A stretch of DNA of 32,941 nucleotides, from the NCBI GenBank assembly GCA_947487905.1, contig CANLAV010000014.1:1-32941 (forward strand), in the 5' to 3' direction. Below, piece after piece: positions 13,150-31,740 of this stretch. This stretch comes from Bacteroidota bacterium (GTDB taxonomy: Bacteria > Bacteroidota > Bacteroidia > B-17B0 > Aurantibacillaceae). A model generated the notes under the pieces. It was not told where the DNA came from and did not search any database. It saw only the letters and a program-made list of their open reading frames with translations. Within the stretch, counting starts at the first letter, position 1. Every line of letters begins with the position of its first letter. Position numbers and translations under genes: made by a program.

Positions 13150-13355
13150 GTTCAATTTTTTTTCGAAGTTAAATAAAATGCCTTTGTTTACTGCAAACAC
13201 TTTCAACTTAGTATTCACAATTTATGAAACAATTTCAGGACAAAACCAATACGTTACTTTCTAATATATACCTAACCATTTATCGTAAAAATAACAAAAG
13301 AATAAAATTTTAATTAACTGAAAATCAATTGATTAAATTATTTTGTTTAACAATA

Positions 13356-13387
13356 TTGCTGTTTTATTAAACATATCTATATATTTG
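13356..13387 (+). promoter_or_regulatory. Promoter of the ECF sigma factor gene
   Basis: TTG at 13356-13358, a 21-base spacer and TATATTTG at 13380-13387 match the Bacteroidota housekeeping consensus TTG / TAnnTTTG exactly. A start site some 7 bases downstream would leave a leader of about 30 bases before the ATG at 13425. Confidence 0.65.
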
Positions 13388-13424
13388 TTTAATCTTTTTA
13401 CTAAACCAGTTAAACAAAATAAAT

Positions 13425-13931
13425 ATGACCGCTATTGAATTTAATACCAAACTATCAAATGAAAAACAATCATTAAATAATTTTGCTTTGAGTTTAACGC
13501 ATAATGTGGATGATGCGCTGGATTTATTGCAAGATACATTTGTGAAGGCCATAACCTATAAAGATAAGTTTGAAGATAGTACAAACTTTAGAGCTTGGCT
13601 TTTCACCATTATGAAAAACACATTTATTAATTCGTACCGAAGAGCTTTAAGAACAAAGCAAATTATGCAAACGAATTCGGATGTAGCAATGGCTCGAGCT
13701 TGGAAAAATAATTATCAAGATATAACAGAATCAAGGTTAGCAGCAAAAGATATTTATAATAAAATTGAACGTTTGGAAGATCAATATAAAATTCCATTCA
13801 CTAGATATTATAACGGATATAAATACGAAGAGATTGCAAAAGAAATGCAACTTCCATTAGGCACTGTAAAAAGTAGGATTTTTTTAGCGCGTAAAATTTT
13901 GATGGAATCTATTCTAAAGTCGCAAAACTAG
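13425..13931 (+). CDS. ECF-type RNA polymerase sigma factor
   Basis: A 168-residue sigma factor with only regions 2 and 4. Region 2 includes DDALDLLQDTFVKAITYKDKF and FRAWLFTIMKNTFINSYRR (residues about 25-70). Region 4 ends in the HTH YEEIAKEMQLPLGTVKSRIFLARK. It recruits core polymerase to a regulon that cannot be read from the window. No anti-sigma gene (zinc-binding ZAS or FecR-like) is adjacent; the next gene encodes a probable outer-membrane protein. Regulation may therefore be transcriptional, or the partner may lie elsewhere. A good housekeeping-type promoter stands in front of it. Confidence 0.93.
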   Translation: MTAIEFNTKLSNEKQSLNNFALSLTHNVDDALDLLQDTFVKAITYKDKFEDSTNFRAWLFTIMKNTFINSYRRALRTKQIMQTNSDVAMARAWKNNYQDITESRLAAKDIYNKIERLEDQYKIPFTRYYNGYKYEEIAKEMQLPLGTVKSRIFLARKILMESILKSQN

Positions 13932-13989
13932 TTTTACATTTAATGAGTGATTTATTTTAATTGATAATCAAAAAATTATACATTTGGTT

Positions 13990-14946
13990 ATGAAATTTAC
14001 TCTAAAAATTATTGGTTTATGGTTGTGTTTATATTTAGTAAGTCTTAAAGGCTTTTCACAATCCAACGAACACACAGAAGAGGATTCAAGTTCAATCGTT
14101 ACTGTAAATCCAAATCAAAAAACATTTCATGCGGGTGTTTACGTGGGCGCATTCTGGGCTAATCATTCAACTGCTGGATTATATGATGGTTATGGCTTTG
14201 ATGAATTTGGCGTAAGAAATACATTTGCTAATAGCATATTATACAATCAAATTGTAAATATTTACGGTGGTGGTTATGGTGGCGTTGATCTTATTGCCCA
14301 ACTTCTTAATGTAGAGCATAAAGATTGGTATTTTAACGAACAGAATATGCCGGCAAATTTAAGGTATACCACAACGTATATGGTTGGATTAAACACCCGA
14401 TACCAAGTTGATAAAAAAACAAATATCATTTTTAATATTAATGCATCCAAACTTGTTGTAGACGGGAAATTCACAATCAGTTCGACCACTACAAGTAATG
14501 GATTTCAAAGTCAAGCGAAACAAAATCAATTTACAATTACTGGAGCTGAACAACGCATGATGATGCAATTAGGATATCAAAAAATAATTGGAAAGAACGA
14601 GAAATTAAAACTGATGGTTGAAGGTGGATTAAATATTATTTTTTCTAAAGCTCAAAAAAATATGATTTATCTAAACAGTGACTTATTTAATGGTGCAAAT
14701 AATATTTCTGTTGATTTAATCAATATATACAATCAAGTGCCTTACAGTTATTACAGTCCGAAGTATTTAGTTGGCGCTGGAATCGGTGCTTTTGCCGGTA
14801 CTGGATTGCATTTAACTATAAATCCTAAATACACCGTTCAACTTTTATACAGTCCGTCTTACGACAGAATTAGTATTGGTTATAATCCAAAATTTAAATT
14901 ACAAAATGGATTTGGATTACGTTTTTATTATAATTTAAGTCAATAA
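13990..14946 (+). CDS. Probable outer-membrane beta-barrel protein
   Basis: A 318-residue exported protein, read from the ATG at 13990; an in-frame TTG at 13984 adds two residues. A signal peptide with a hydrophobic core ends near FSQ at about residue 24. The mature protein shows many amphipathic strands alternating aromatic and polar residues (for example TTTYMVGLNTRYQV and KYTVQLLYSPSYDR), and it ends in a strand finishing LRFYYNLSQ. An aromatic-rich last strand is typical of outer-membrane barrels. There is no plug domain or enzymatic motif. It follows the ECF sigma gene by 58 bases and is convergent with corA. No family is recognised. Confidence 0.75.
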   Translation: MKFTLKIIGLWLCLYLVSLKGFSQSNEHTEEDSSSIVTVNPNQKTFHAGVYVGAFWANHSTAGLYDGYGFDEFGVRNTFANSILYNQIVNIYGGGYGGVDLIAQLLNVEHKDWYFNEQNMPANLRYTTTYMVGLNTRYQVDKKTNIIFNINASKLVVDGKFTISSTTTSNGFQSQAKQNQFTITGAEQRMMMQLGYQKIIGKNEKLKLMVEGGLNIIFSKAQKNMIYLNSDLFNGANNISVDLINIYNQVPYSYYSPKYLVGAGIGAFAGTGLHLTINPKYTVQLLYSPSYDRISIGYNPKFKLQNGFGLRFYYNLSQ

Positions 14947-27725: not shown

Positions 27726-29018
27726 TTAATAGTGACACTTAGCGCATTCAAGTCCGCCGATTTTTTCAACCGTCAACTTAACGTCGTGTTGTCCTTTATA
27801 TTTTTCTTTTAAAGCTTTATGTATTTTGTCATAATAAGCGTTGCCTTCCATTGCAACTTCTGTTTTTCTATGACACTCAATACACCATTTCATAGTAAGT
27901 GGAGATTGTTGTTGCACTACTTCCATTTCCTTTACTTTCCCATGGCAATTTGCACAATCTTGTTTACCAACAACGACATGTTGCTTATGATTGAAATAAA
28001 CGTGATCAGGAAGATTATGAATTTTAATCCACTTGATAGGATTTTGAGGGTTTGTGTAATTTCCTGTTTTAGGATCAAAACCTGATGCTTCGTAAATTTT
28101 AGCAATTTCTTTTTCCCCGTATTTTGGTCCTTTTTGAATTGCTTTGTGGCAATTCATACAAACATTAACTGAAGGAATACCCGCATGTTTAGATTTTTCT
28201 ACTGAATTATGGCAATACTGACAAGCAATTTCGTTGTCACCTGCATGTAATTTATGAGAAAACTTAATTGGTTGTGGTGGTTGATAGCCTTTTTGAGTTT
28301 TATAATCATAATATACTCCTAAATTATAACAAGCGTTCCAGCAAGACTTCATTCCTATAAATAAAATAATAATAACACATACACCTACTAATCTGCGATG
28401 GCTTCCCATCCAGTGTTTTACCTCTTCTACAAATGTCATTTCAGGTACTTCAGGCTTACCTTCTTTCTTATTAAAAGAATTAGCCAATGAATGACGAACA
28501 CTTCTTAGAGCGCCAACAATGATTGCTAATAAAACAATTGAGCCTAATAGTAAATACAATGGGTCAATAGCACCTTTTACTTCTTCTGTTTTTTCTTCTG
28601 TTGTTCCGCCTTCGCCTGATCCAGATGCCGAAGGTTTAACTTCAGCTGGTGGAGCAATAATATAAGCAACTACAGATTTTAATTCATCATCAGTTAAATA
28701 CTCAAATTCGCTCATACCATCAACACCGCCATTATTAGCCACTAATGATTTTGCATAAGCATCGCCAGAAGCAATGACTTTATTGTTGTTCTTGATCCAT
28801 TTTGATAACCATTCTGTTTCTGGTTTTGGAACACGACCTGCTACTCCTAACAAACCTGGACCCGTTAATTTTTGATCCGTTAATGAGTGACAAACAGCAC
28901 AATTTTGTTTAAAAATTTTAGCGCCATCTTGAGCTTTTAAATTAATTGAAAAAGCGAATAACAAAAAAACCGCAGAAATAAAGGGTTTTAAAGAGAAATG
29001 AGACATATTGTTATGCAT
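27726..29018 (-). CDS. actA: Alternative complex III subunit ActA, multihaem cytochrome c with an added N-terminal c domain
   Basis: Read from the ATG at 29016-29018 it has 430 residues; an ATG at 29004-29006 would trim four, and further upstream codons look non-coding. A signal peptide precedes a monohaem cytochrome c domain (CAVCH at 40-44, likely Met102 ligand), a Ser/Glu-rich linker, a helix near 153-176 and a second near 210-225. The pentahaem part then has CQYCH 266, CMNCH 287, CANCH 355, CIECH 379 and CAKCH 425, the last three residues from the end. That makes six haem c sites instead of the five of the basic ActA. It is the first gene of the operon, with promoter-like boxes upstream and a MerR gene divergent from it. 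Confidence 0.94.
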   Translation of the reverse strand: MHNNMSHFSLKPFISAVFLLFAFSINLKAQDGAKIFKQNCAVCHSLTDQKLTGPGLLGVAGRVPKPETEWLSKWIKNNNKVIASGDAYAKSLVANNGGVDGMSEFEYLTDDELKSVVAYIIAPPAEVKPSASGSGEGGTTEEKTEEVKGAIDPLYLLLGSIVLLAIIVGALRSVRHSLANSFNKKEGKPEVPEMTFVEEVKHWMGSHRRLVGVCVIIILFIGMKSCWNACYNLGVYYDYKTQKGYQPPQPIKFSHKLHAGDNEIACQYCHNSVEKSKHAGIPSVNVCMNCHKAIQKGPKYGEKEIAKIYEASGFDPKTGNYTNPQNPIKWIKIHNLPDHVYFNHKQHVVVGKQDCANCHGKVKEMEVVQQQSPLTMKWCIECHRKTEVAMEGNAYYDKIHKALKEKYKGQHDVKLTVEKIGGLECAKCHY

Positions 29019-29070
29019 AGAATTGTATCTAATTTTGAATGTGTTTAGCAATTTAATGACATTATTATGA

Positions 29071-29092
29071 CAAAAATATGCGCACAAAAATA
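29071..29092 (-). promoter_or_regulatory. Tandem -7 boxes of the act operon promoter
   Basis: The minus strand reads TATTTTTG at 29092-29085 and again at 29078-29071. Both are exact TAnnTTTG boxes, 14 bases apart. Neither has a perfect TTG at 17-23 bases upstream. They would give 5' leaders of roughly 50 to 65 bases before actA. They are supported by position and sequence only. Confidence 0.5.
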
Positions 29093-29128: not shown

Positions 29129-29267
29129 TTTATTCCATTTTTTATTAATTTATAATGATTCTAAATAAAAAAGTTATAAATCAACAATAATTGGTTTGAT
29201 TTTTGTTCTATTCAATCGATAAAATAAACATAGAGCTCGCTTTGTTGTTATATTTACATATAAAATT

Positions 29268-30149
29268 ATGAATACACATTACACAATAAAAGATTTAGAA
29301 AGGCTGTCTGGGGTAAAAGCCCATACATTAAGGGTTTGGGAGCAACGATACGGCATTCTACAACCGGAGCGTACAGATACAAATATCAGATTTTATTCGT
29401 CAGATGATTTAAAAAATATTTTAAATATTTCTTTATTAAATAATAATGGAATTAAGATTTCAAAAATTGCAAAATTATCTAGCAGCGAAATACTAAATGA
29501 GGCGCAAATAATACTAAATACATACAGTAAAGAAAGTGATCAAATTGATAATTTGGTGCTCAGCATGATTGAAATGAATGAAGTGAAATTTGAAAAAATA
29601 ATTTCAAACTGTGTGATTCATTTTGGATTTGAAAACACCATGGAAAAGGTTGTGTTTCCGTTTTTAAGACAAGTTGGAAACATGTGGCAAATGGGACTTA
29701 TAAACACTATACAAGAACATTTTATTACGCATTTAATTCGTCAAAAAATTATAGTTGGCATTGATGGTTTGTTTCATGAAATTTCGCCAAATCCAAAAAC
29801 ATTTTTATTGTATTTACCAAATAAAGAATTACATGAACTTGGTTTGTTGTACTGCAATTTTTTAATAAAAGCGAAGGGCCATAAGTGTTACTATTTAGGG
29901 CAATCTGTCCCGATAGAAGATTTAGAGAAAGCAAATGAATTAGTTTCTCCTGATGTGATTGTTACCTCGTTCACAAATCCAATGGATGAGAACACAGTTA
30001 CTGATTATTTAAAAACGATTGCTAAGACTTTCAAAAATAAGTCTATACTAATTTCAGGTAGAGTGTTTTCCTTTTTTAGTCATAAACTTGAGTTGCCAAA
30101 AAACGTTTGTTTATTACACTCCTATGATGAGTTTAAAAATCTACTGTAA
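29268..30149 (+). CDS. MerR family regulator with cobalamin-binding domain (CarH-like)
   Basis: A 293-residue transcription factor. The MerR winged helix occupies residues 4-70, with the LRVWEQRYGILQPERT recognition part typical of the CarA/CarH/LitR group. A helical B12 cap domain (about 90-165) and a Rossmann B12-binding domain (about 175-290) follow. The adenosylcobalamin-cap signature W140-x9-E150-H151 is intact. So is E187-x-H189-x-x-G192, where His189 would be the lower cobalt ligand, followed by the GHKCYYLGQSVP loop. In CarH these features make a repressor that dissolves its DNA-bound tetramer in light. Here that role is inferred. The gene is divergent from actA and is 20 bases upstream of a DUF4296 gene on the same strand. 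Confidence 0.9.
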   Translation: MNTHYTIKDLERLSGVKAHTLRVWEQRYGILQPERTDTNIRFYSSDDLKNILNISLLNNNGIKISKIAKLSSSEILNEAQIILNTYSKESDQIDNLVLSMIEMNEVKFEKIISNCVIHFGFENTMEKVVFPFLRQVGNMWQMGLINTIQEHFITHLIRQKIIVGIDGLFHEISPNPKTFLLYLPNKELHELGLLYCNFLIKAKGHKCYYLGQSVPIEDLEKANELVSPDVIVTSFTNPMDENTVTDYLKTIAKTFKNKSILISGRVFSFFSHKLELPKNVCLLHSYDEFKNLL

Positions 30150-30169: not shown

Positions 30170-30523
30170 ATGAAATTTAAACTAAGACATTTATTTACTT
30201 TTTCTATTTTTATAATATCGTGTGCAGCGAAACATGAAGACGACGTTTTAGTTCCTCCAACTATTCTTGATAGCCATCAGTTGGTAGAAATACTTACTGA
30301 TGCTTATTTAGCTGAAGGCGCTGCGGGCATTAATATTAAAGGGGTTTCGGGGCAACAATTTGATTCTGTTTATTTATTTAATCCATTAAAAGAACACGGT
30401 TGTTCTAAATCAAAATTTGATTCCTCCATGGTTTTTTATACTCACCATCCAATCGTTTTAAAAAATATTTACGATCAGGTATTAGAAGAACTTAATAAAA
30501 TAGCGGCACGAGATTCCATATGA
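30170..30523 (+). CDS. DUF4296 domain lipoprotein
   Basis: A 117-residue lipoprotein with a signal ending FIISC (Cys18). The body matches DUF4296: VPPTILDSHQLVEILTDAYLAEGA, then a long gap and FDSSMVFYTHHPIVLKNIYDQVLEEL. The family is confined to Bacteroidota and has no known function. It overlaps the next gene by four bases (ATGA at 30520-30523), so translational coupling is likely, and it starts 20 bases after the MerR gene. Confidence 0.88.
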   Translation: MKFKLRHLFTFSIFIISCAAKHEDDVLVPPTILDSHQLVEILTDAYLAEGAAGINIKGVSGQQFDSVYLFNPLKEHGCSKSKFDSSMVFYTHHPIVLKNIYDQVLEELNKIAARDSI

Positions 30524-31740
30524 AACAGTTAATTTCTGAAATAAAAACATTAGCCGAACTTGGGTTTCAAGAAGTTGTTTCTATTAGAAGACACATTCAT
30601 AAATATCCTGAATTATCATTTAAAGAATTTCAAACTGCTGAATTTATTTGTTCGGTTTTAGATACATACAATATTGCATATCAAAAAAATATTGTAGGAA
30701 CAGGAATCATTGCAATCATTGAAGGACTAAACCCTTCTAAAAAGATCATTTTACTTCGTGCAGATTTAGATGCATTGCCAATCGTTGAAGAAAATAAAAC
30801 TGATTATGCATCTGTGAATGAAGGAATCATGCATGCTTGCGGACATGATGTGCATAGTGCTTCTGTTTTAGGCACTATCATTATTATAAGCAAATTAAAA
30901 AACAAATTTAGTGGTACTGTAAAAATTATGTTCCAGCCTGGCGAAGAAGTATTGCCAGGTGGCGCATCTTTAATGATTGATGCCGATGTTTTAGAAAACC
31001 CACATGTTGATTGTGCAATTGCCCAGCATGTATTTCCGAGTATGCCAGCTGGTAAAGTTGGATTTAGAAATGGCATGTATATGGCTAGTACAGATGAAAT
31101 ACATATAACCATACATGGTAAAGGCGGACACGCAGCCATGCCTGCTGAATACATCAATCCATTAAATGCAGCAGCTACGATTATTCAAACTATTGAAAAA
31201 GAATTTCCGTTTTATCTCGATGAAGAAGGTGTTTCTAAAAATACACATAACGGTATTCCAACCGTCGTTGCATTTGGAAAAATTGAAGGAAAAGGAGCAA
31301 CTAATGTTATTCCTTCTAGCCTATACTTAGCAGGAACGCTGAGAACAATGGACGAAGAGTGGCGAAAAGAAATAAAAGAAAAAATAAAAGGAATTATTCA
31401 ATCGGTATGCGAAAATTATAACACAACCGCTGATATTAATATTGTAAACGGATACCCTTTTCTGGTAAACGATGTTCCTCTTACAAATCGCTGCAAACAA
31501 TTTGCCATAGATTATCTAGGAGAAGAGAACGTAGAAGAATTGCCACTAAGAATGACAGCAGAAGACTTCGCATACATTACTCAAAAAGTACCAAGTTGTT
31601 TTTATCGATTAGGGACAGGCAATGAAGAAAAAAATATTACCTCAGGAGTTCATACCTCAACATTTGATGTTGATGAAAAAGCTTTAGAAATTTCAACTGG
31701 GCTAATGGCCTATATCACAATGTGCGAGCTTGAGTCTTAA
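30520..31740 (+). CDS. M20 family metallopeptidase, N-acyl-L-amino acid amidohydrolase type
   Basis: A 406-residue cytosolic zinc hydrolase of the M20D group (hippurate hydrolase or N-acetyl-diaminopimelate deacetylase relatives). Metal ligands and catalytic residues are visible: Cys107, His109 and His112 in HACGHDVHSA, the Glu142-Glu143 pair in QPGEEV, and His170 in IAQHVF. The early RRHIHKYPELSFKE is also typical. The dimerisation domain starts near residue 185 (ITIHGKGGHAAMP). There is no signal peptide, so it likely acts on small N-acyl amino acids in the cytoplasm. It overlaps the DUF4296 gene by four bases and ends one base before the convergent M28 gene. Confidence 0.93.
   Translation: MKQLISEIKTLAELGFQEVVSIRRHIHKYPELSFKEFQTAEFICSVLDTYNIAYQKNIVGTGIIAIIEGLNPSKKIILLRADLDALPIVEENKTDYASVNEGIMHACGHDVHSASVLGTIIIISKLKNKFSGTVKIMFQPGEEVLPGGASLMIDADVLENPHVDCAIAQHVFPSMPAGKVGFRNGMYMASTDEIHITIHGKGGHAAMPAEYINPLNAAATIIQTIEKEFPFYLDEEGVSKNTHNGIPTVVAFGKIEGKGATNVIPSSLYLAGTLRTMDEEWRKEIKEKIKGIIQSVCENYNTTADINIVNGYPFLVNDVPLTNRCKQFAIDYLGEENVEELPLRMTAEDFAYITQKVPSCFYRLGTGNEEKNITSGVHTSTFDVDEKALEISTGLMAYITMCELES

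Follow-up and report, generated by a model that had tools for sequence, protein, structure and literature searches.

The gene considered here, merR, encodes a MerR-family protein and lies back to back with actA, the first gene of an operon for alternative complex III and its oxidase (actA to ctaD, minus strand), in a Bacteroidota genome. The locus raises the question of whether the merR product is a light sensor based on vitamin B12 and, if so, whether it governs respiration or other genes. The window, which is the whole stretch of 32,941 nucleotides that was analysed, contains the features collected in Table 1. The original prediction, made from these letters alone, had proposed a CarH-type sensor facing actA across 249 bases; this distance is correct when counted from merR to the upstream ATG of actA.

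Table 1. Positions of the genes, protein domains and DNA elements discussed in the text.
Feature	Position	Strand	Remarks
Distal inverted repeat, TGTTTA-N18-TAAACA	13344..13373	.	Proposed operator in front of the ECF sigma gene
Proximal inverted repeat, TGTTTA-N19-TAAACA	13386..13416	.	Proposed operator in front of the ECF sigma gene; first half-site fused to a TAnnTTTG box
ECF sigma factor gene	13425..13931	+	Divergent from lysS; proposed direct target; orthology to merR-linked sigma genes
actA, first gene of the alternative complex III/oxidase operon	27726..29006	-	Divergent neighbour of merR, judged no target
actA promoter region	29056..29092	-	TATTTTTG box at 29085-29092 and 11-bp tandem TGTCAT repeat at 29056-29072
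Everted half-site pair, TAAACA-N15-TGTTAT	29225..29251	+	merR promoter
merR (carH-like) gene	29268..30149	+	ORF of 293 aa with ATG start
MerR DNA-binding domain	residues 5-72		merR product
Four-helix B12 cap with W140-x9-EH	codons 29685-29720	+	merR product
Rossmann B12 domain with E187-x-H189	H189 codon 29832-29834	+	merR product
DUF4296 protein gene	30170..30523	+	20 bases behind merR; Pfam
M20 peptidase/amidohydrolase gene	30520..31740	+	Overlaps the DUF4296 stop; Pfam

The domain composition and key residues of the merR product were examined against known CarH proteins. Pfam gives matches to MerR_1 (PF13411, 4e-16) and B12-binding_2 (3.7e-6, above its cut-off), while the B12-binding match (7e-6) stays below cut-off with 26.3 of 32.1 bits. 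W140-x9-E150-H151 and E187-x-H189-x-x-G192 are found at the predicted positions. Among 35 aligned orthologue sequences with 31-76% identity to the merR product, none deviates at W140, E150, H151 or H189, and E187 is nearly invariant; hence the motif is no chance match. The recognition helix is of the RxWERRY type (R22-V-W24-E-Q-R-Y28), with R22, W24, E25 and R27 invariant in the same 35 sequences. The Wx9EH cap motif that characterises CarH (PMC9304148) is present. Of the B12 motif D/ExHx2G/P-x41-SxT/V-x22-27-GG, the elements E187-x-H189-x2-G192, S234-x-T236 at x41 and G264 at x27 are present, and R265 stands in place of the second glycine of the last pair. CarA, which is B12-independent and has lost the Trp of Wx9EH, was rejected as a class given the invariant W140.

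The fold points the same way. The AlphaFold model (pLDDT 89) finds TtCarH as its best PDB match in Foldseek (5c8e/5c8d, E 3e-16), and the top 12 matches are all full-length TtCarH chains, followed by the light-responsive CtMerR (8jbt, also 8jbs) and by TtCarH B12 domains; the B12 domain of the model reaches a TM-score of ~0.8 by target. With phmmer, full-length TtCarH (5c8d) is matched at 1.2e-20. Class II LitR, consisting of the four-helix bundle only, was ruled out by the Rossmann B12 domain seen in both model and alignment. The light signature of SignatureFinder (GxxW, EH, GxxH, GxxxP; PMC11796333) is present in its GxxW, EH and GxxxP elements; GxxH is replaced by K186-E-L-H189, the Gly position holding K186 here and Gly in some orthologues. 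The NCBIfam equivalog TransRegCarH (NF052513) scores best among all equivalogs, with 103.5 bits (E 1.2e-29) against a cut-off of 400 bits. Because the GxxH element is lacking and the NF052513 cut-off is not reached, we call the protein CarH-like rather than CarH.

Moreover, His132, the light-state cobalt ligand of TtCarH, corresponds to Q141, and together with K186 and the GR pair this departure may make the cofactor chemistry different from that of TtCarH. The three substitutions and the subthreshold B12-binding match could also fit a carotenoid regulator that is no B12 photoreceptor and that senses through a partner or through cobalamin level alone, like CarA and class II LitR, two cases in which proteins of this kind have lost B12 sensing (PMC9304148, PMC9758184). 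We regard this reading as unlikely, since the Wx9EH motif by which CarH is told from CarA is intact (PMC9304148), the His ligand is invariant in the 35 orthologues, an adenosyltransferase is present in the same genome, and the bis-His state that TtCarH adopts in the light is reported not to hold for every light-responsive B12 domain (PMC11796333). This adenosyltransferase is of the PduO type (E 1e-61), so that adenosylcobalamin (AdoCbl) could be made from cobalamin. By its residues, its fold and the gene associations described below, the merR product is a probable CarH-type vitamin-B12 light sensor, and the original prediction is upheld on this point.

With regard to possible targets, it had been noted that no crt gene lies in the window. 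This is true, but the same genome has crtI-crtB-idi on another contig (C24), and the window itself contains a carotenoid-linked ECF sigma factor gene; both had been missed. In other Bacteroidota, homologues of this sigma gene are often found directly behind merR, and often before crtI-crtB, and in one genome (G010, locus L170) the sigma gene is still close to crtI-crtB-idi. Among 80 named Bacteroidota loci, an ECF sigma gene stands within a few genes of merR in 45 and crtI/crtB in 24. In the same 80 loci these neighbourhoods often include crtZ, folE, queD or photolyase as well.

The phyletic distribution across 80 relatives shows the same association. Indeed, merR and the ECF gene are both present in 38, merR only in 9, the ECF gene only in none and neither in 33 (Fisher 2e-14), and the corresponding counts for merR and crtB are 41, 6, 5 and 28 (Fisher 6e-11); the exceptions thus include nine relatives with merR that are without the ECF gene and five with crtB that are without merR. 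By comparison, actA is present in 77 of the 80. Within the genus, four members (G007, G013, G016 and G018) are without merR, ECF gene and crtB, three unlinked loci, and have kept actA; they fall in three places on a tree of ActA sequences, and the pattern suggests at least three losses. On this tree, which was built quickly from one gene and whose deep part is unsure because several branches are long, 13 supported independent pairs differ in merR; crtB changes in the same way as merR in 7.8 of them and in the opposite way in 0.2 (median p 0.008), and the ECF gene in 7.2 and 0.0 respectively (median p 0.016). Hence retention and loss of merR go along with those of crtB and of one ECF sigma gene, and the association with carotenoid genes that marks CarH and class I LitR is found for crtB/crtI both phyletically and in the neighbourhoods.

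Several further observations concern these loci. Directly behind the ECF sigma gene lies a gene for an outer-membrane-type protein (13984-14946), conserved in most genus members and possibly co-transcribed with it. In most genus members (L164, L165, L167, L169-L172, L175-L178), crtI is faced by another, divergent desaturase-like gene whose product has 26-29% identity to CrtI; its place is taken by an MBL-fold gene in the present genome and in G002. The gap upstream of crtI contains CGTAAGTTTAA, which is common to genus members.

Upstream of the ECF sigma gene, an inverted repeat was found in 68 of 82 distinct upstream regions, compared to 0.09 expected from dinucleotide shuffles. The half-sites are spaced by 24-25 bases in 101 of 108 pairs, the repeat is often doubled with copies 41-44 bases apart, and flanking bases outside the search pattern are symmetric as well, giving TTTGTTTAAY-N14-RTTAAACAAA. 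In 21 of the 68 cases, among them the present genome, a TAnnTTTG box, which we take to be the Bacteroidota -7 consensus, is fused to the proximal copy; such an arrangement would suit a repressor. The TAAACA half-site fits the TnnACA half-site of CarH, and published CarH operators are 11-bp direct repeats, not inverted ones (PMC9304148). Such direct repeats (nnnnTnnACAn) were rejected as the operator here, the conserved sites being inverted TnnACA-type half-sites 24-25 bases apart. Where merR lies directly before crtI with no ECF gene (G028, G030, G033, G037 and G039), the inverted repeat precedes crtI and/or merR, and it was not found in four crt loci of genomes without merR (L200-L203).

Within the present genome, seven matches to the repeat were obtained compared to eight in a reversed control, and the only tandem is the one before the ECF gene (13344-13416). 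Likewise, in searches of this genome for a regulon, neither the inverted repeat nor the everted element described below exceeded the reversed control, and for this reason the sites used as evidence were limited to those with phylogenetic support. In several relatives the inverted repeat was also seen between divergent genes for folE (GTP cyclohydrolase I) and an SRPBCC-family protein (L053 16080-16109, L188 5994-6023, L189 3324-3353, L069 10091-10165), suggesting that pterin synthesis may belong to the regulon. The folE copy of the present genome was rejected as a target, with no site conserved across the genus.

The inverted repeat is absent from the merR and crtI promoters of the present genome, which have an everted form instead. 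Across the genus, this everted pair, TAAAC-N16-TGTT, recurs in the promoters of merR, crtI and photolyase, with a related form before photolyase; in the present genome it is found before crtI (C24:18550-18576) and before photolyase (L344). Before photolyase it is conserved in most of the genus and also in G016, which is without merR and ECF gene. Since merR promoters keep it in genus members whose actA lies elsewhere, the pair in the merR-actA gap belongs to merR. TAAAC-N16-TGTT may be a promoter read by the ECF sigma factor. At the photolyase gene of L209 (1501-2836) on contig C28 of the present genome, the inverted repeat lies across the start codon and the everted TAAAC-N16-TGTT just upstream.

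It could be argued that the inverted repeat is bound by the ECF sigma factor itself or by another regulator, with merR only travelling with the cluster, given that no other gene has the repeat as regularly as the sigma gene (68 of 82) and that the everted element of the merR, crtI and photolyase promoters resembles a two-box promoter. This is improbable in our view: the inverted repeat is symmetric over the full half-site, it occurs before crtI and merR in genomes that have merR and no ECF gene, and the four crt loci read from genomes without merR yielded no copy near crt.

The position of merR beside actA was then weighed against gene order in relatives. Within the genus, merR, DUF4296 and M20 form a trio that is fixed in all 12 members with close merR orthologues and absent outside the genus; the DUF4296 and M20 genes are genus-specific trio members, outside the wider light circuit. 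Upstream of merR, 10 of these 12 members have other genes. In the genus actA adjoins merR only in the present genome, G002 and G008, which form one clade (support 99) on the ActA tree, consistent with a single change; in the remaining genus members other genes, most often one conserved pair, stand before actA, and actA was found near merR in none of the 80 named Bacteroidota loci. That merR lies beside genes for respiration is thus a chance outcome of recent changes in gene order. In place of the close orthologue, two members of the genus, G001 and G014 (L052, L053), have a divergent copy of merR (44-48% identity) at a different locus, which suggests replacement.

The actA promoter gives a concordant picture. 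Throughout the genus, actA has kept a TATTTTTG-type box and the TGTCAT repeat, with less strict conservation in the family, and the promoter is alike in genomes where merR adjoins actA, lies far away or is missing. This 11-bp tandem repeat was rejected as a CarH site, since the T of TnnACA is lacking and genomes that have no merR retain the repeat, and the inverted repeat is present in none of the actA promoters read. The proposal that light or cobalamin sets the complex III/oxidase operon through a merR product bound to the shared gap is therefore very improbable: the divergent adjacency is kept in three related genomes and the actA leader has a repeat with the period of CarH operators, but that adjacency arose once, the promoter and its repeat do not change with the position or presence of merR, and the sole conserved TnnACA-type pair in the gap is that of the merR promoter. 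Light or cobalamin control of respiratory electron flow is thus unsupported in view of the linkage, phyletic and promoter evidence, and conservation of the gene pair, which the original prediction had put forward as a check, turned out against it. Its other suggestion, autoregulation with a distant target, comes close to the evidence, the likely targets being the ECF sigma gene at a distance of 15 kb and the crt genes of contig C24.

Taken together, we consider it likely that the merR product is a CarH/class I LitR-like, AdoCbl-dependent dark repressor of a light regulon comprising the ECF sigma factor, carotenoid genes and photolyase, with the act/oxidase operon outside its control. The computation establishes the family of the protein, its key residues and fold, the associations with other genes, the repeat resembling an operator and the lack of linkage to actA; B12 and light sensing, DNA binding and repression would follow by analogy with CarH, as described in PMC4557120 and PMC9304148. 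Several observations weigh against this reading: the residue differences from TtCarH, the inverted instead of direct repeats, the count of single matches in the present genome, the everted form at its merR and crtI promoters, the relatives with merR and no ECF gene or with crtB and no merR, and the photolyase element of G016. In the dark, the AdoCbl-loaded protein would sit on the paired inverted repeats over the ECF sigma promoter and keep the sigma gene repressed. Light would break the Co-C bond and release the protein from DNA. The ECF sigma factor would then be made and would turn on crtI-crtB-idi, probably photolyase, and merR, acting on promoters with the everted TAAAC-N16-TGTT element, the putative sigma-dependent promoter. 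With somewhat less confidence, we lean towards a switch common to the Bacteroidota, in which a CarH-type B12 repressor would act on the doubled inverted-repeat operator of a dedicated ECF gene and thereby on a sigma cascade for carotenoids, pterins and photolyase.

What is new here is the sigma gene in the window, the proposed operator and the association across the Bacteroidota. The CarH literature consulted centres on Thermus, Bacillus and Myxococcus, and no description of a Bacteroidota CarH-ECF circuit was found in the open-access literature searched. A tempting link from light to respiration is removed and a testable regulon stands in its place. The Bacteroidota, among which pigmented species are common, seem to have a CarH version that is wired to an ECF sigma factor and a different operator. 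If this is true, the operator geometry would imply a mode of DNA binding unlike that of the CarH tetramer on direct repeats, pigment and photolyase would be under light/B12 control in many cultured species (e.g. Algoriphagus, Pontibacter, Marivirga), and new green-light switches could become available.

Compared to CarH of Thermus thermophilus, Bacillus megaterium and Myxococcus xanthus (class I LitR), the present system has in common the MerR domain, the Wx9EH cap, the Rossmann domain with ExHx2G and SxT, the fold, the carotenoid genes as associated targets and the TnnACA-type half-site (PMC9304148). It differs by an identity of ~21% over the structural alignment, by having Q at the His132 position, K at the GxxH glycine and GR at the GG pair, by a proposed operator of 24-bp-spaced inverted repeats, usually double, instead of 11-bp direct repeats, and by a sigma factor gene placed between sensor and crt genes. 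CtMerR of Chloracidobacterium thermophilum is likewise a MerR protein with a CarH-type B12 domain, light-responsive in vitro (PMC11796333), although it is 17% identical to the merR product. In Pseudomonas, class II LitR (PplR/PmlR), a repressor from the LitR/CarH family, controls a light regulon that includes photolyase and folE (PMC9758184), genes that also neighbour the Bacteroidota merR-ECF pair. Class II LitR has the four-helix domain only, acts with a LOV protein and uses TGTACA-N12-TGTACA sites, whereas the Rossmann B12 domain is kept here.

In Streptomyces coelicolor, the regulator LitR and the ECF sigma factor LitS jointly drive light-induced carotenoid production. Phylum, operator and gene order are different from those described here, and the likeness lies in the pairing of regulator and sigma factor. 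CarQ of Myxococcus is again an ECF sigma factor in light-induced carotenogenesis (PMC9304148); unlike the sigma factor proposed here, it is held by the anti-sigma factor CarR, answers singlet oxygen and acts apart from CarH.
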